From contig NC_054684.1 of the NCBI RefSeq assembly GCF_011074885.1, positions 521,001 through 585,000 on the forward strand: a DNA stretch of 64,000 nt, written 5' to 3'. Each line of letters opens with the position of its first letter. The first letter of the stretch is position 1. Shown one piece after another: positions 12,733-53,425 of the stretch. The position numbers and the translations under genes are program-made. This stretch comes from Brettanomyces bruxellensis. Lineage: Eukaryota; Ascomycota; Pichiomycetes; Pichiales; Pichiaceae. The notes under the pieces were generated by a model that made no database searches, was not told the DNA's origin, and saw nothing but the letters and a program-made list of their open reading frames with translations.

Positions 12733-13818
12733 ATGAAGTTCGTCATTGTCCTCTACGATGCAAATGAACATGCCAAAGATGAGCCAAAATTGTACGGTTG
12801 CACTGAAAATGCTTTGGGCATCAAGGACGAACTAGAAAAACAAGGACATGAAGTGATTGTTACTTCTGATAAGGAAGGCGAGAATTCAGAATTCGAAAAG
12901 AACTTGCCTGATGCAGATATAGTGATTACTACTCCATTCCACCCTGCATATCTTACCTCAAAGCGTATTGACAAAGCCAAGAAGCTCAAGCTTATCATTG
13001 TTGCTGGTGTTGGATCGGATCACATTGACTTAGACTACATCAATAAGAACAAGCTCAAAATTTCTGTTCTGGAAGTTACCGGATCTAATGTCGTCTCAGT
13101 GGCGGAGCATGTGATTATGACAATGCTTGTTTTGGTGAGAAACTTTGTTCCTGCCCATGAACAAGCAATCAATGGTGAATGGGATGTTGCCGCAATCGCC
13201 AAGGATGCTTATGATATTGAGGGAAAGACAATTGCCACAATTGGTGCTGGTAGAATTGGCTACAGAGTCTTGCAGAGACTTGTGGCCTTCAACCCTAAGG
13301 AGTTGTTGTATTATGACTACAATCCTTTACCAGCAGAGGCAGAGAAAGCTGTTGGTGCAAAGAGAGTTCTTGATCTGAAAGATTTAGTTTCTCAGGCTGA
13401 TATTGTGACCGTGAACTGTCCTTTGCACGCAGGAACTCAAGGAATGATCAACAAAGAACTTTTGAAACACTTCAAGAAGGGAGCATGGTTGGTTAACACG
13501 GCTCGTGGCCGCATCTGTGTTGCCGAGGATGTTGCTGAAGCTGTGAAAAATGGTCAGCTTAGAGGTTATGGTGGTGATGTGTGGTACCCACAGCCAGCAC
13601 CTAAGGATCATCCATGGAGATCATTTAGAAACAAGTATGGTGCTGGAAATGCCATGGTTCCGCACTATTCTGGTACAGTTCTTGACGCCCAGATAAGATA
13701 TGCTGAGGGTACAAGAAACATAATTCATTCCTTCCTTTCTGGAAAGCTTGATTATAGACCACAAGATGTCATCTTACTTGATGGTGAGTACCAGACAAAG
13801 TCTTATGGAAAGCATTAA
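12733..13818 (+). CDS. FDH1: NAD-dependent formate dehydrogenase
   Basis: Oxidises formate to CO2 while reducing NAD+, in the cytosol of yeasts. Starting at 12733 gives 361 residues and places the catalytic residues at the numbering of the well-studied Candida boidinii enzyme: N119, R258 (in NTARGR) and H311 (in VPHYSG). The Rossmann motif [10 protein letters not shown] is at 171-180, and D195, which selects NAD over NADP, is present. The more upstream ATG at 12685 would add 16 residues with no counterpart. It is convergent with the ribonucleotide reductase gene, with 432 bp between the two stop codons. In methylotrophic yeasts the enzyme ends methanol oxidation; in others it detoxifies formate and yields NADH. 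The neighbour makes a formate link with anaerobic ribonucleotide reduction worth considering. All key residues are intact. Confidence 0.95.
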
Positions 13819-14250
13819 GTTTATAGTTGAAGAAAAGTAACGCTGAATATATGTGCTTGTGTCATATAATAGTACGAATGCTTTATGTAACTTTGAGAAA
13901 GTGTTTTTGTATCGCTAAAGAATTCAAACGGTCGAAAAAATGCCCAAGTTTACCACATTTGAGAAGTTTACTTTTTTCGGATATCGCCTACTACGCGTGT
14001 AGTTCAAATAGTTTATTCACTTTGCTTAATCCTAACACCAAAGCTACAATTTTTTTGGTTAAACAAAAATAAAATTAATTGGGGGGGGGGGGGAAAAAAA
14101 AAAAATTCGATAAAATTAAATTTAGAAAAGAAAAGAATCATAACTAGAACCGATGCGAAAGCGTAAAACGCAATAGGAATAAAAAAAGAAATGAAATATA
14201 AAAAGCACCAACGAAACGACCAAATAAAAACAGATCCAAACCCAACGTAC
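13819..14250. other. Convergent 3' intergenic region with a G13-A12 homopolymer junction
   Basis: Between the stop codons of formate dehydrogenase and the ribonucleotide reductase there is no gene. A run of 13 G (14081-14093) joins directly to 12 A (14094-14105). Such runs are mutable and error-prone in sequencing. The region should hold both transcript terminators. Confidence 0.6.
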
Positions 14251-16757
14251 TTAAACAAGCACTGCCTGCTTTTCAGCAGTAACATCAATTTCCTCGATCT
14301 TCTTCCTCTTGACATCAAACTGCTCCTCAGTATCTTCCATATGGGATGGTAATCCTCAGAAAGGATCGTATTACCCTTACGGAACTTCTGAAGCTTCAAG
14401 TTGCCACCAGAAAGCTTCTTGCACTGGACAAGATCTTCAAGATCAACCAATCCAGGGACAACGGTGGTTCTAAATTGATATGGAACACCCGAGTTCTTAA
14501 TCATCTCGATACTGCGCTTAAGGACTTCAGGTTTGACATATTTTCCTGCTATTTCCTTGTATCTATCAAGAGAGCCTTTGATATCCATTGCAATGTAGTC
14601 AATCAAATGCTCATTGAAGATTTTCTCAAGCACTTGTGGGTTTGTTCCATTTGTGTCCAACTTGACGCTGATACCACTCTTCTTTAGTAATCTCAAGAAA
14701 GGAATTAGACCACGCTGAATAGTTGGTTCACCACCAGATATAACAAGATTTTTGTGCTTTGAATTCTCAACATAATCAAAGACATTTTCAATTGGGATTA
14801 ATGGAGATTCTCCCCTAACGACTGGTCCGTTCTGACACCATGGACATGCCAAATTACAAGTTGAGGTAAACATAATGGATGCCATTTTACCAGGGTAATC
14901 AATTAAAGTCTGCTTCATGAAACCTCCAATAGCGAGTTTTTTCTGGTCGTATGTTTTCCTTTTCTTGAACTCATTCTTTTTTCCAATGTTCCAGTCTTTT
15001 GTTGGCCTATAGTATCCAACAATTCGAGAGTAGACAAGTGTATGCTCGTCACACTTTGGACAAATAGGAACTTCTCCCACAATGTAACCGTGATTGCTGC
15101 AAATGCTGAAAGTTGGCGTCAAAGTGATATATGGGATTCTGAAATTCGTGGTGATCATTTTAACTAATTTCTTTGCTTCATCACCAGACGTTAACTTTTC
15201 ACCCAAAAATGTGTGGAAAACAGTACCACCGGTATAAGTACACTGTAGACTTTCCTGGTGATCGGCAGCCATCAAAACATCATCAGTGTAATTAACTGGA
15301 AGCATAGTGGAGTTTGTGTAGAAAACGGGAATATCATCGGTCTTGAAAATTTTCCTGTCATTACGTGCAAGACTATAGCATGCACCTTCTGCTGGTGTAG
15401 CTTCCAAATTGAATAAATGTCCAGTTTCCTGTTGGAAAGCTTCCAAACGCACCTTAATGAATTCAAGCACTTCAATAGCAAATGGCTTATCGTTGGCAAT
15501 ACCATGACCCAAAAGAGTTAGCATAGCTTCATTCATTCCAATGACACCTATTGTGTTGAAATGGTTTGCCCAGTAAGAACCTGTTTTCTCGTAGACGGAG
15601 CGAAGATAATGGGTAGCATAAGGAAATAGACTCATGTTAGAATCAACAACTTTTCTCTTAGTCTCAAGACAATCCTTGGCAACCTGCAATGTATCATCCA
15701 ACATTTCATGAAATTTCTTGATATTACCATCACTACGATGGGCAAGATTTGGGAGGTTAATAGTGACGACACCCAAAGAACCTGTCAATGGCATAGAACT
15801 AAACAATCCACCACGACTCCGAAGCTTACTGATATCGAGACGAAGCCTGCAGCACATGGATCTGAAATCGGATGGATCTAAGTCACTGTTGATAAAATTG
15901 GCAAAATATGGAACACCGTACTTTGCTGTCATTTGCCAAACGGGCTTCATTCTTGGCGCATCCCAATCAAATCCCTCATAAAGATTGTACGTAGGAATAG
16001 GAAACGAGAATATATTTCCATTTCCATCTCCTCCATACATGACCTGACAGAAAGCTTTATTGAACATGTCCATCTCCTCCTGAAAATCATCATAGACCCA
16101 ACTTTCATGATACTTTCCTCCAATGATAACAGGATGACCTTTCAATGTTGGGGGACAAACCAAATCCATTGAGACATTTGTAAATGGTGCTTGGAAACCG
16201 GATCTTGTAGGAATATTAAGCGAATAGATAAAGTTTTCAACCGCTTTGTAGACTTGCTCGTAATCCAAATGATCATATCTGATAAATGGTGCAAAATAAG
16301 TGTCAACATTTGAGAGAGCTTGTGCACCAGCAAGCTCACCTTGAAGGGTGAAAAGAAAGTTGACAGCTTGATTCAAGGCAGCTGAAAAGTGCTTTGGTGG
16401 CTTTGCCTGAATTTTGTTTTCAACACCTCCAAAACCTTGGGTGAGTAAATCTTCAAGACTCCAACCCGCACAGTAGGCGCTTAGATATCCAAGATCATGA
16501 ATATGGAATCTGTTTTCCTTGAAGTACTGCTGCACCTTATCGCTGTAAACGCTCAACCAATAGTCTTTAATGACATTGTTTGAAATATACTGCATAAGAC
16601 CCTGAAGAGAATAAGTGGAGTTAGCATTTTCCTGTGCTTTCCACGTCTTCTTTTCCAAGTACTTACGCACAAGGTCTGCATCTGATTCAGGTTTACTTTT
16701 TAGTTCACCTTGCTTGCTTGTAATCGAGGCAAGAATAGTTGCAAGTGTTGCTGACAT
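14251..16757 (-). CDS. nrdD-nrdG: Class III anaerobic ribonucleotide reductase fused to its radical-SAM activase (NrdD-NrdG)
   Basis: Residues 1-602 are NrdD, the oxygen-sensitive glycyl-radical enzyme reducing ribonucleotides to deoxyribonucleotides. Seen: RSMCCRLRLD with candidate thiyl cysteines C302/C303, a Cys-rich metal site (C553, C566, C569), and the radical-bearing glycine in SRIVGYYRP (G581) followed by the usual WN.GK..EF tail. Residues from about 610 are NrdG: CNLACPWC gives the CX3CX2C iron-sulfur motif (C634, C638, C641), SGGEPT the SAM-binding GGEP (675-678), then KLDTNGT and YIAMDIK. No N-terminal ATP-cone is visible. In bacteria these are normally two genes. The frame breaks near 14341-14346: after EDYHP (801-805) the natural end continues one base out of register as a 29-residue acidic tail ending at 14251. 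Without the shift the frame reads non-coding DNA to 14013. The shift may be an assembly indel or real; both catalytic domains precede it. Bacterial origin by transfer is inferred. Confidence 0.93.
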
Positions 16758-19227: not shown

Positions 19228-20583
19228 TCACAAAAGCAAAAGAGCAGCAGCAGCGGCCATGAGATTGGAACTGTAACCAAATTTAACAGCAGCACCCTCG
19301 TAGGTAGAAACCTCTGCAGCCTCAGAAGCAGTCGATTCTGAAGAAACCGAAGTCGAGACAGCCGGAACGGCAGCAGTGGTTTCAGTTGCTGGTGTGCTCG
19401 AATAAGTAGCCTGAATAGCGGAAGTTTTACTGACTGAAGAGAGAGGACAGTAGGTCGTCAAAATGGTCTTTGTACCATTCTCAGTAGTAGTGAAGGATTT
19501 CACACCTGTAGTAACTGCTGTCTTGGTGCAAACATGGTCGGAACAGGAGGTGATGGTAACAATAGTAGTGACAACATCGGCGGATCCTGAAGCAGCAGCA
19601 GTACTAGCATCAGAAGTGGCCGAGATCGAAGTACTGTTCGAGAAGAGAACGGAATTAGAATAGCTCGAAGTTGCATTCACAGGAACGGTAGCAGCAAGAT
19701 CAGTGCTAGAAGAAGCAACACTTGTAACAGCAGCTGCCGAAGAGTTTGCAGCGGAAGTAAAGTACAAGGTCGAAGATAGCGACGAATCAGCTGAGGTCAC
19801 TGCATCGGAGCTAGTAGCAGAACTCGAAACTGCAGATGTTTCCAAAGCCGAAGATGATTCAGAGGAACTTGTAGATAATGATGTTGTTGCTTCAGTAGTG
19901 GTTTCGGATGAGCTACTAGACGATGACGTAGTTGTCTCCGTAGTAGATTCAGAGGAGCTAGTAGATGAAGCAGCGGATGAAGTAGTAGAAGACGTAGTCG
20001 ATGGCGTAGTTGTGGATGAGGTAGATGAAGTTGTAGATGGAGTAGTAGTGGATGAGGTAGATGAGGTAGATGAAGTAGTAGATGGGGCACTAGTAGAGGA
20101 AGTAGAAGATGGGGTAGTAGTCGTTGATGTTGTCGTTGTCGAGGTGGACGAGGTGGTGGCTGAGGTGGATGTTGTCGACTTCACAGTAGTTGGGACTGTC
20201 GTAGATGAGGAAGAAGTAACAGGGGTAGAGGTCGAAGATTTTGACGAGGTCACTTCAATAGTGATCTTTGGCAAGATTCTAGTTGAATACCATGGAAGTG
20301 CGGTTTCCAACGACTGAATCTCGTCGTACTCTGACTCGGACATGGTGATGAAAAGAGTGGTGAAAGAGTCATCAGTGTAAGTTGCGATTTGAGTAAACAA
20401 TCCAACCAAACCATCAGGGAAACTGACTCCCGGGTTTAACATAAGATACTGGATATAACCATTGATGTTATCTTCAATATCAAGGAAAAGAACCTCCAAA
20501 CTTTCAACCTGTCTGGCATCAAGGTCGGCTAATGCAACACCTGCAAGGGCTGCGAGTGATAATGCTCCAAATCTCATTTCCAA
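19228..20583 (-). CDS. Srp1/Tip1 (TIR/DAN-type) GPI cell-wall mannoprotein
   Basis: Protein of 451 residues: a signal peptide (hydrophobic to about residue 19), then a Srp1/Tip1 domain (about 20-106) whose end LPWYSTRI is diagnostic. About 210 residues of Ser/Thr-rich stalk with repeated PSTTSSTSSTT blocks follow, then one [20 protein letters not shown] domain, and a GPI signal after STYEGAAVKFGYSS. In S. cerevisiae this family includes TIP1 and the TIR and DAN genes, many induced by cold or anaerobiosis. The start could be the first or third codon (both ATG) without effect on the signal peptide. Upstream sequence holds AR1-like hypoxia elements at 20835-20842 and 20872-20879. A wall role is confident; anaerobic induction is inferred. 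Confidence 0.9.
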   Translation of the reverse strand: MEMRFGALSLAALAGVALADLDARQVESLEVLFLDIEDNINGYIQYLMLNPGVSFPDGLVGLFTQIATYTDDSFTTLFITMSESEYDEIQSLETALPWYSTRILPKITIEVTSSKSSTSTPVTSSSSTTVPTTVKSTTSTSATTSSTSTTTTSTTTTPSSTSSTSAPSTTSSTSSTSSTTTPSTTSSTSSTTTPSTTSSTTSSAASSTSSSESTTETTTSSSSSSSETTTEATTSLSTSSSESSSALETSAVSSSATSSDAVTSADSSLSSTLYFTSAANSSAAAVTSVASSSTDLAATVPVNATSSYSNSVLFSNSTSISATSDASTAAASGSADVVTTIVTITSCSDHVCTKTAVTTGVKSFTTTENGTKTILTTYCPLSSVSKTSAIQATYSSTPATETTAAVPAVSTSVSSESTASEAAEVSTYEGAAVKFGYSSNLMAAAAALLLL

Positions 20584-36534: not shown

Positions 36535-37730
36535 ATGGCATTCAAAAAGGATAAAGAAGATGATTTTTTTTTTTTTTGCCGAAAGAATGGTCACTTCAAA
36601 AAGGAATGTTCAGAGTACAAGAAATGGAAGGCCAGTAAGGCCAAAGAAGGAGTTCAGTCTTACAGTACTGAGGAAACTCATTGTATGGAAGTAATTGAAC
36701 TTTCAGAAGGAACAGTGGGTGAACTCCCTAAGGAAGTTTTCTTGTTGGATTCAGGTGCATCATGTCATTCGGTTACAGACGTGAACATACTTGAAGAGGT
36801 CAGAACTAGTGCTAAGCGGATAAAGACAGCAAACGGAAGTTCTGAAGTTCAACTTGTTGGTACAGCAAGGTGTGGTAATTTAGTCTTAGAAGATGCAATT
36901 TATCTAGAGCACGGTACACATAACTTAGTCTCGTTGTCAAGGCTTTTGAGGAAGGGTTTCAGGATTGTCTGGAATTACGACAAAGCATTGATATACGGAA
37001 GAGATGATAAGGTTGTGACTGTTGCCCATGAACGCAATGGTGTTTACGTCATGGATAATCCCGGTTTGGAATTAGTTCTAGAAGTCAGTGTCTCTTCTAA
37101 GCATAAGGATTTTCTTGCAAGCGTGCATGCCAGTTATGGCCATGCGTCTGTGAACAAGATGTTAAAGATAGTTGAGTCAATTTCGGAAAAGAAATTCTCT
37201 CAGGATCAAATAAGGAAAACTGTACAAGAATGTGAAGTGTGTTTGGGTCAGGTTAATTTGACTCATGGTAAGCAACACTTGGAAGTGGTTAAGAAACCCG
37301 GACACGTTCTTTGTGCAGATGTAATTGGTCCAATTAAGGGAAAGTACGGACTTATTGTTACAGATAAGTTCTCAACTTTCATGATCGGGAAGGTTTTGGA
37401 GTCAAGGTCTGAAGTGTCTCTAAAAACGATCGAAACAGTAAAGGAATTCATTAGCTTATTAAAGCTAGGAGGTTACAGGCCAATCTTCTTGAGGACAGAT
37501 AATGAATTTGCAACTAAAGCTTTAGCCGCGTATTACAGGGATATGGAATTGTTGAACAGTTTAATGCTCAATGTAGTTCTTATCAGAATGGGCGTGCAGA
37601 ACAAAGCGACTGGGATATAGAGACTAGTATAGAGAGACTCATGAAATGGGCACGGAAGCAAATGGACTTATGGACGGAGGTGTTTCGTCATGTGATCTTT
37701 CTTCACAGCAGTTTAGCATAATGGAAGAAA
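36535..37730 (+). pseudogene. gag zinc-knuckle, protease and integrase remnant
   Basis: The longest internal frame (36535-37620). A CCHC knuckle (CRKNGHFKKEC) lacks its first Cys beside a T14 run (36564-36577). The protease motif LLDSGASCH follows, then the integrase zinc region (HASYGHAS...CEVCLGQ) and core aspartates in CADVIGPIKGKYG and LRTDNEFATKA. The frame then shifts: the segment holding the third catalytic residue (SYQNGRAEQ) is in another frame and the protein ends at 37618. Confidence 0.85.
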
Positions 37731-50872: not shown

Positions 50873-53425
50873 CTATAGAAGTAAACTGATAAGTACTGAA
50901 ATTGCAACTGGGAAGGCATATTCAAGGCTTGCACCAGAACCCTCATAAATTGCAACATCCGATGATGCATTTGTATATTCCGAAGAGGATGTTTCCCATT
51001 CAGATGATGAAAAGGTAGATTCGGATGTTATTTCTTCGGCAGTTTGTGGAATCACAGCAGACTTATTTGGTTGCTCAGATGAAGCACTTGTTTCAATCTT
51101 TGATGTCTTTCCAGCTTCTATTGCTCCACCAGCAGTTTTAGAAATGTCTGTTATATCTGTCGTAGAACCAGTATTAAATTCATCGGTCACAACTTCTCCA
51201 GTAATAGTTAAAGCTGTAGGATTTGGAATAGTGGCAAAGTCTGTTGTACCCTTGGAATTTTCATTCACCGTTGAACTTGAATCATTTGAATAGAAAGCAA
51301 AAGTTTTGGAGTCTGAGTATTTTGCAGATGTCGTTCCCCCACTGGATTGAGAGCTATAAGGCTCTTCCACGATAATTATACTTTTTGTTAGAACTTTATT
51401 ATCAGAGGTGAATGTTGCGATCTTTGTTGTGACCGATTTACAAGGGACATCAGTGGTAACAGTAATTGTGGAGATGCTTGGTCTCTCAACAAGTATTATA
51501 CTACCTATAATCTTCTTTCCTCTAGATGTGTAAGTAGTAGCAACAGTAGTAGTAGTCTCTGACTCAACATCCGTGGTCGTCGTAATAACTGGAAGAGTTG
51601 GTTCTTCCACAAGCACAACAGTACTGGTGATAGTATTATCTTTTGAAGTGTATGTTGTAGGAACAGTTGTGGTAGTCTCTGCCTCGACATCTGTTGTTGT
51701 GGTGATAGTAGAGAGAGGTGGTTCCTCGACAAGCACAATAGTGCTGGTGATCGTACTATCTCCAGAGGTGTATGTTGTAGGAACAGTTGTGGTAGTCTCT
51801 GCCTCGACATCTGTTGTTGTGGTGGTAGTAGAGAGAGGTGGTTCCTCGACAAGCACAATAGTGCTGGTGATCGTACTATCTCCAGAGGTGTATGTTGTAG
51901 GAACAGTTGTGGTAGTCTCTGCCTCGACATCTGTTGTTGTGGTGGTAGTAGAGAGAGGTGGTTCCTCGACAAGCACAATAGTGCTGGTGATCGTACTATC
52001 TCCAGAGGTGTATGTTGTAGGAACAGTTGTGGTAGTCTCTGCCTCGACATCTGTTGTTGTGGTGGTAGTAGAGAGAGGTGGTTCCTCGACAAGCACAATA
52101 GTGCTGGTGATCGTACTATCTCCAGAGGTGTATGTTGTAGGAACAGTTGTGGTAGTCTCTGCCTCGACATCTGTTGTTGTGGTGGTAGTAGAGAGAGGTG
52201 GTTCCTCGACAAGCACAATAGTGCTGGTGATCGTACTATCTCCAGAGGTGTATGTTGTAGGAACAGTTGTGGTAGTCTCTGCCTCGACATCTGTTGTTGT
52301 GGTGGTAGTAGAGAGAGGTGGTTCCTCGACAAGCACAATAGTGCTGGTGATCGTACTATCTCCAGAGGTGTATGTTGTAGGAACAGTTGTGGTAGTCTCT
52401 GCCTCGACATCTGTTGTTGTGGTGGTAGTAGAGAGAGGTGGTTCCTCGACAAGCACAATAGTGCTGGTGATCGTACTATCTCCAGAGGTGTATGTTGTAG
52501 GAACAGTTGTGGTAGTCTCTGCCTCGACATCTGTTGTTGTGGTGGTAGTAGAGAGAGGTGGTTCCTCGACAAGCACAATAGTGCTGGTGATCGTACTATC
52601 TCCAGAGGTGTATGTTGTAGGAACAGTTGTGGTAGTCTCTGCCTCAACATCTGTTGTAACAGTATTTGTATTAAAAGGCAATGTTGCTGAAGAAGATGAA
52701 CATGATCCGTCAATGTTAACGAACTGATAAATATAATCACTAAAATCAGTAATAGAGTTCCCAGCTGGGTCAACAACAGTAAAGGATAAAAGTGCTCTTG
52801 AATTAACATTTGCGTATCTCAACTTAATTGGGTAAAATGATCCTGCAGAGAGATATACTGAATAAGAAGAAGCGCCATCTTTCTGGGCATCGAAACTTCT
52901 TCCTGTGGCAAAGTCAGGTTTGACATCGTTGTTAGTGGCTGATGGATCGCAACAATCCAATCCTTTTCCAAACCACACAGCAGCAAAATCATCCACATTT
53001 GTAAGTTCTATAGTGTAGACACCTGATGTTTCTGCATAAAAGTATCCACTCATTTCTAGAGCAAAATGCCACAAATAAATAGTAAATGTTCCAATTTCTG
53101 AAGTTGCATATGTATTCTCTTCATCATAATAACTAAGTGTTGGGCTAACAATACCTGTTATACTACCAATTAATCCATATTGACTATAACCTGTTTCAAA
53201 GAATTCAGTACTGACACTTCCATCTGCAGTATTTCCTGCTGCTGCCCCTGTTAACGGGTAGGAATAATAGGTCTCAGCAAAACCTGAAACACTTCCAACT
53301 TGATCTCCATACAGGCAACCAACACCACCCTCGGTGGCGACATATTCAGCTATAGCTTCCCCAATTAAGCTCTGAGATAGAGCAATAAACTGAAGGACGC
53401 TCTTGAATCGAAAATAGAATCTCAT
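50873..53425 (-). CDS. PA14/GLEYA-type GPI-anchored adhesin with a 40-residue repeat array
   Basis: An 850-residue flocculin-like adhesin. A signal peptide (about 1-26) is followed by a PA14/GLEYA lectin domain (about 30-245). It includes the calcium-binding aspartate pair D145-D146 in LTNVDDFAAVWFGKG and adjacent cysteines C158-C159. Such domains bind surface sugars such as mannose. Eight near-perfect 40-residue repeats (TTYTSGDSTITSTIVLVEEP type) and three diverged ones form the stalk. A Ser/Thr-rich region and a GPI signal after AIYEGSGASLEYAF complete it. Function in cell-cell or surface adhesion is inferred from domains. The repeat array should make its length vary between strains. Confidence 0.9.
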   Translation of the reverse strand: MRFYFRFKSVLQFIALSQSLIGEAIAEYVATEGGVGCLYGDQVGSVSGFAETYYSYPLTGAAAGNTADGSVSTEFFETGYSQYGLIGSITGIVSPTLSYYDEENTYATSEIGTFTIYLWHFALEMSGYFYAETSGVYTIELTNVDDFAAVWFGKGLDCCDPSATNNDVKPDFATGRSFDAQKDGASSYSVYLSAGSFYPIKLRYANVNSRALLSFTVVDPAGNSITDFSDYIYQFVNIDGSCSSSSATLPFNTNTVTTDVEAETTTTVPTTYTSGDSTITSTIVLVEEPPLSTTTTTTDVEAETTTTVPTTYTSGDSTITSTIVLVEEPPLSTTTTTTDVEAETTTTVPTTYTSGDSTITSTIVLVEEPPLSTTTTTTDVEAETTTTVPTTYTSGDSTITSTIVLVEEPPLSTTTTTTDVEAETTTTVPTTYTSGDSTITSTIVLVEEPPLSTTTTTTDVEAETTTTVPTTYTSGDSTITSTIVLVEEPPLSTTTTTTDVEAETTTTVPTTYTSGDSTITSTIVLVEEPPLSTTTTTTDVEAETTTTVPTTYTSGDSTITSTIVLVEEPPLSTITTTTDVEAETTTTVPTTYTSKDNTITSTVVLVEEPTLPVITTTTDVESETTTTVATTYTSRGKKIIGSIILVERPSISTITVTTDVPCKSVTTKIATFTSDNKVLTKSIIIVEEPYSSQSSGGTTSAKYSDSKTFAFYSNDSSSTVNENSKGTTDFATIPNPTALTITGEVVTDEFNTGSTTDITDISKTAGGAIEAGKTSKIETSASSEQPNKSAVIPQTAEEITSESTFSSSEWETSSSEYTNASSDVAIYEGSGASLEYAFPVAISVLISLLL
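51661..52680 (-). repeat. 120-bp tandem repeat array inside the adhesin gene
   Basis: Units start at 51661, 51781, 51901 and every 120 bp on to 52621; seven of them (51781-52620) look identical by eye, including synonymous positions. Further copies at 51420-51660, nearer the 3' end of the gene, are progressively diverged. Unit length is a multiple of three, so copy-number changes keep the frame. Confidence 0.95.

Follow-up and report, generated by a model that had tools for sequence, protein, structure and literature searches.

A fused NrdD-NrdG (NrdDG) gene of the class III ribonucleotide reductase family in the yeast Brettanomyces bruxellensis

The NrdDG gene and its domains

A window of 64,000 nucleotides from the yeast Brettanomyces bruxellensis (contig NC_054684.1, positions 521,001 to 585,000) carries an open reading frame (ORF) in which a class III, or anaerobic, ribonucleotide reductase, NrdD, is joined to its activase, NrdG; we refer to the fused form as NrdDG. 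The ORF lies on the minus strand at 14013..16757 of the window, opens with an ATG at 16757 and stops at 14013, and encodes 914 amino acids (aa) without interruption and with no intron required; likeness to relatives stops near 14346. The first half is matched by Pfam PF13597 (NRDD) on residues 43-603 (14949..16631, minus strand), with 583 bits and 562/562 profile positions covered, and by NCBIfam NF006126 (ribonucleoside triphosphate reductase), with 830 bits against a cut-off of 548. The second half is matched by Pfam Radical_SAM on residues 629-772 (14442..14873, minus strand; 74 bits) and by NCBIfam TIGR02495 (NrdG2), with 166 bits against a cut-off of 131. These domain assignments are far beyond chance, and the predicted fold of the NrdD part includes the ten-stranded barrel of glycyl-radical enzymes. 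There is no ATP-cone ahead of the NrdD domain, nor is there one in any of the 47 fused relatives scanned. The joint between the two domains is 11 residues long in all four Brettanomyces-type sequences; the median for the remaining 43 fused sequences is 33.

Protein relatives were taken as the best 120 of 7996 matches, giving 121 proteins with that of the window, and the conservation of residues was counted over 47 aligned fused relatives. The adjacent cysteines C302 and C303 of RSMCCRLRLD (MCCR motif, 15849..15854) are each present in 47/47, as are the metal-site cysteines C553, C566 and C569, the fourth residue of that site, H556, being present in 46/47 (15051..15101). The glycyl-radical residue G581 in SRIVGYYRP (15015..15017), which falls in the glycyl-radical loop when aligned to solved NrdDs, and the iron-sulphur motif C634-X3-C638-X2-C641 of the NrdG half (14835..14858) are likewise in 47/47. 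GGEPT begins at residue 675, with G675-E677 identical in 47/47. All of these are on the minus strand.

The preliminary description of this DNA, made from the letters alone, had proposed an NrdD core and an NrdG in a single frame and had named these same motifs. The Pfam and NCBIfam matches within the one ORF bear out the architecture, and every motif named is present and conserved in 46 or 47 of the 47 relatives. However, it placed the end at 14251, where another frame has its stop; the ORF itself stops at 14013.

Three of the fused proteins, P0066, P0067 and P0068, have an insert of about 155-195 residues between the aligned C302 and C303. That of P0068 matches Pfam Intein_splicing weakly, at 32.8 bits, under the cut-off of 35.8. 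It would be unusual for an intein to sit at the catalytic cysteine in a fused NrdDG.

The C-terminal end

The window has one base fewer than the database sequences P0002 and P0122, and the frame slips after about residue 804. By sequence comparison the site of the missing base is at 14341..14346 (minus strand). P0002, of 835 aa, and P0122, a partial piece, both continue in frame into a 29-residue tail, which in the window is in another frame (14251..14340, minus strand) and has the stop that gave the earlier end coordinate of 14251. The missing base could be either an assembly error or a real allele.

If the one-base loss is a true one, the altered C-terminus might leave the protein inactive or unstable, and the gene would be a decaying allele. 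The slip itself, with its added tail of 110 residues, and its absence from the two database sequences would fit this. However both domains and every named catalytic residue are upstream of the slip, the 804 codons before it have no further stop or slip, the codon usage and GC content of the gene resemble those of its neighbours, and loss of a single base is a frequent assembly error. We regard decay as unlikely.

Active-site type and the formate dehydrogenase gene

In profile alignments to solved NrdDs the MCCR cysteines fall on those of the SCCR of Thermotoga maritima NrdD, and Y95-C96, both invariant, fall at Tyr124-Cys125 of the same protein. E452 (47/47) aligns with a glutamate of T. maritima, and there is no Glu at this position in the Prevotella copri, T4 or S. 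thermophilus enzymes; we take it to be the active-site Glu meant by Wei et al. 2014. The place of the sixth-strand Asn is taken by the variable M322 in the raw alignment, or by S327 (Ser in 47/47) after adjustment by hand, neither being Asn in the fused set. At the finger-loop tip, for which the NrdD2/NrdDh subtype is defined by a hydrophobic residue (Ile, Leu or Phe), we find L318-F319 aligned, with Q at 318 in 16/47 and F or Y at 319 in 47/47, although the published alignment is itself uncertain here.

In the published classification NrdD2 is marked by a third cysteine and an active-site Glu, both SCCR cysteines are essential, and NrdDh4 has MCCR and a Phe at the tip (PMC4493059). In the formate type, as described for P. 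copri, the third cysteine is lacking, with Asn435 instead (PMC11226230). The fused proteins do not have this formate (NrdD1) pattern, as C302 and E452 are present in 47/47; they have the MCCR pair, the Tyr before the first-strand Cys and the Glu at the aligned site that go with NrdD2/NrdDh. With MCCR and Glu present and Asn absent, the active site has the MCCR/Glu pattern of NrdDh ('NrdD2'), and we predict that thioredoxin would be a likelier reductant than formate. Of enzymes of this type, formate did not work for that of T. maritima and thioredoxin worked for that of Neisseria bacilliformis (PMC4493059).

The T. maritima and N. bacilliformis enzymes (NrdDh) share with the yeast protein the CCR pair, the first-strand Tyr-Cys and, by alignment, the extra Glu, and that of T. 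maritima is also without an ATP-cone. They differ in having SCCR where the yeast has MCCR, the variant reported for NrdDh4, and for T. maritima the identity to the yeast protein is about 20-23% in structural alignments and the activase is separate. The NrdD of P. copri (formate type, 8p23/8p2s) is unlike the yeast protein in having an ATP-cone and Asn435 for the third Cys (PMC11226230), and also in having MGCR aligned with the CC pair and in lacking a Glu opposite E452. In bacteria the NrdG2 activases and the activase of pyruvate formate-lyase are separate proteins, whereas the yeast activase is joined to the C-terminus of NrdD.

The convergent neighbour of the gene, at 12733..13818 on the plus strand, encodes an NAD-dependent formate dehydrogenase (NF005750) whose nearest named natural relatives are from yeasts, with identities of at most 79%. 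One could suppose from this adjacency that NrdDG is driven by formate, the supply being tuned by the adjoining dehydrogenase, and formate is indeed used by well-studied class III enzymes (PMC4493059). Against this, the extra cysteine C302 together with E452 is a non-formate pattern, and the genome has no match to pyruvate formate-lyase. Further, the dehydrogenase resembles the enzymes of other yeasts, and those named yeasts are absent among the best 120 NrdDG matches. We think a formate-driven enzyme improbable, a little more so than decay, and reject a functional link on the grounds of the active site and the ordinary yeast kind of dehydrogenase; the adjacency is probably a coincidence that has nothing to do with NrdDG function.

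Distribution of the fused gene

Both halves are in one chain in 65 of the 121 proteins, that of the window included. Fused relatives at 69-71% identity are carried by Brettanomyces nanus and B. naardenensis, and the other carriers named among the matches listed are Fusarium, Dactylonectria, Apiospora, Phaeoacremonium, Grosmannia, Ascosphaera, Pleurotus and Phytophthora. Within these best 120 matches the top identities are about 65-71% for fungi and at most 57% for bacteria. That other budding yeasts are without NrdDG is suggested, and no more than suggested because the comparison is based on these 120 of 7996 matches.

For gene arrangement in prokaryotes we used the best 80 of 584 confirmed loci, and for viral contigs 80 of 82 loci. 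In 74/80 of the prokaryote loci a separate nrdG comes after nrdD, both on one strand, and 6/80 have no nrdG in the DNA examined; none of the 80 has a fused gene. The 80 viral-contig loci also have no fused gene, and in 29 of them both genes are present, apart.

Phylogeny and origin

The NrdD tree was made with 84 of 201 pooled sequences, leaving out the fragments P0053, P0057, P0060 and P0064 and near-duplicates, and a more careful tree with 51 of those 84 rows, 17 eukaryotic-set and 16 bacterial rows being excluded. The NrdG tree has 141 of 241 sequences. For many of the rows eukaryotic status was itself inferred from fusion and tree position.

In the 84-row NrdD tree one branch, with a Shimodaira-Hasegawa-like approximate likelihood ratio test (SH-aLRT) value of 100, divides 54 eukaryotic-set rows from 30 bacterial or archaeal rows. 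The 54 comprise 51 fused proteins and three that are NrdD only (P0058, P0062 and P0063). In the careful tree the same eukaryotic/bacterial branch has support of 100/100, as has the grouping of the four Brettanomyces-type rows. These four fall within a 24-row clade (95/95) that includes every row named as a fungus in the set, and a nine-row group with Phytophthora has 100/99.

The NrdG tree has the 51 fused rows in one group with support of 95, plus one further row, P0227. Here the four Brettanomyces-type rows lie close together at the base of the fungal part without forming one clade: P0002 and P0003 branch at an open fork, and the rows of B. nanus and B. naardenensis group with other fungi at 92. 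P0227 is a 164-aa piece initially labelled bacterial. It has the domain complementary to that of P0057, and because the longest contig is of 4923 bases for both, they are probably parts of a single fused gene that the gene caller divided, P0227 not being bacterial.

As the trees of both halves part the fused eukaryotic set from bacteria, the fusion is older than this yeast, which holds a fungal form of the gene. That copy may have come by descent or by transfer from one fungus to another, the forks within the fungal clade being open. The alternative, put forward in the preliminary description, was direct transfer of a bacterial nrdD-nrdG pair into this yeast lineage and fusion there. It has in its favour that the nearest bacterial genes are in the same order in most of the loci above. 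However it is contradicted by both trees, in which the fused proteins are one clade against bacteria, as well as by the higher identity to fungi and the lack of any fused prokaryote locus, and recent bacterial transfer is rejected as very improbable. The preliminary description had allowed that nesting among fungi would tell against recent transfer and leave function untouched, and so it has turned out; the same fusion, which it proposed be sought in related yeasts, is the one found in B. nanus and B. naardenensis.

Genome context

The gene is at C3:535016-537757, inside a contig of a 13.1-Mb, nine-contig genome, in which a profile search gave the fused gene as the sole NRDD match. The same genome has class I reductase, with two large-subunit matches and one small-subunit match, and has five radical-SAM proteins, NrdDG included. 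It also has five flavodoxin-domain matches, a flavodoxin being one conceivable electron donor for the activase. Codon usage and GC content of NrdDG compared with those of the neighbours give no mark of foreign origin.

Nine of the ten neighbour proteins scanned have a Pfam match, the families being AIM24, flocculin-repeat and SRP1/TIP1 wall proteins, aldo/keto reductase, cytosine/purine permease, TENA/THI-4, a Zn2-Cys6 factor, a retroelement Pol piece and an MFS transporter. There are yeast genes on both sides, and the nuclear yeast location is upheld. Contamination of the assembly, bacterial or other, is the least credible of the alternatives and is ruled out by the context, as the gene is well inside its contig (about 535-538 kb) among fungal Zn-cluster, SRP1/TIP1 and flocculin genes, and its homologues in B. 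nanus and B. naardenensis are on contigs of 1.4 and 1.7 Mb.

Upstream, the nearest gene found on the same strand (19228-20577, minus) encodes a wall protein of the seripauperin/TIP1 family with a flocculin repeat; relatives in this family are anaerobically induced in S. cerevisiae. Further away, the retroelement Pol piece (36535-37620, plus; Pol_BBD, 27.1 bits) is within a region of strong GC skew, 0.23-0.29 over 35-40 kb. At 50873-53425 (minus) a long protein that looks secreted carries many Thr-rich repeats, nearly identical to one another; it is adhesin-like in appearance, and its repeats also keep the other strand and other frames open over long stretches.

Discussion

Fused NrdDG was described by Lundin et al. 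2010 (PMC3019208) from five fungi and three Phytophthora, with eight class III genes in all; they gave eukaryotic NrdDG a single origin in bacteria, followed by spread from one eukaryote to another. The carriers at that time were Schizosaccharomyces japonicus, with one fused and one single nrdD, Fusarium/Gibberella/Nectria and Phytophthora (PMC3019208). The yeast gene resembles that set in having one reading frame, in belonging to one eukaryotic clade of bacterial origin and in the presence of class I as well (PMC3019208). What is new is a budding yeast, Brettanomyces, as carrier, the prediction of reductant, the general lack of an ATP-cone and the short joint. We found no statement of NrdDG in Brettanomyces in the open-licence literature searched, and the table of horizontal gene transfers in PMC7052964 does not include it. 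The Discussion of PMC8520639 refers to the transferred S. japonicus enzyme as a Class-I ribonucleotide reductase; it is class III according to Lundin et al. 2010 (PMC3019208).

We think it likely that this is a gene for a self-contained anaerobic ribonucleotide reductase, serving as a back-up to class I for anoxic growth; the NrdDG of this Brettanomyces-type yeast is real and probably working. Following the order of radical steps known for the family, the C-terminal NrdG would, without oxygen, bind a [4Fe-4S] cluster through C634, C638 and C641 together with S-adenosylmethionine, and would accept one electron from a cell donor to give a 5'-deoxyadenosyl radical. This would place a stable radical at G581 in an NrdD domain, from which it would move to the MCCR cysteines for reduction of ribonucleoside triphosphates to deoxyribonucleoside triphosphates (dNTPs). 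The oxidised cysteines would then be re-reduced, most likely by the thioredoxin system and not by formate. As oxygen destroys the glycyl radical, the enzyme would be suited to a back-up role in anoxic growth. The bacterial transfer and the fusion would both be older events, the yeast having received the fungal form by descent or by transfer between fungi.

Some points weigh against this interpretation. In the window copy the frame slip swaps the last 30 or so residues for the 110-residue tail. TCGTATA is a hypoxia promoter element, and there is a copy about 500 bases upstream of the gene, but this is uninformative because the 6 copies in the window are about the chance expectation of 5.49. The main text of a low-oxygen transcriptome study of Dekkera bruxellensis, which lists selected genes only, has no word starting 'ribonucleo' (PMC3596373). 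Finally E. coli thioredoxin was unusable by T. maritima NrdD (PMC4493059), and the reductant may vary within the type.

Anaerobic growth has been reported for Dekkera bruxellensis (PMC8520639, PMC3596373). One may suggest, tentatively and at rather less than even chances, that Brettanomyces-type yeasts make dNTPs in strict anoxia by a self-activating, thioredoxin-driven class III enzyme, which has lost the ATP-cone and may so have escaped the usual shut-off by deoxyadenosine triphosphate. On this suggestion the gene would have been acquired from another fungus, and would be part of the reason why these yeasts, unlike most budding yeasts, grow without oxygen.

The lack of an ATP-cone in the fused proteins, taken with their CCR/Glu pattern, leads us to predict a thioredoxin-driven fungal reductase free of ATP-cone control, and the Brettanomyces protein, with its very short joint, is a promising target for a first structure that includes both NrdD and its activase domain. 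Class I reductase requires oxygen to form its radical, and for this reason the supply of dNTPs in anoxic eukaryotes is puzzling. The question of how a eukaryote could make dNTPs in full anoxia becomes directly testable in a yeast that ferments, can be cultured and has a single class III gene alongside class I.
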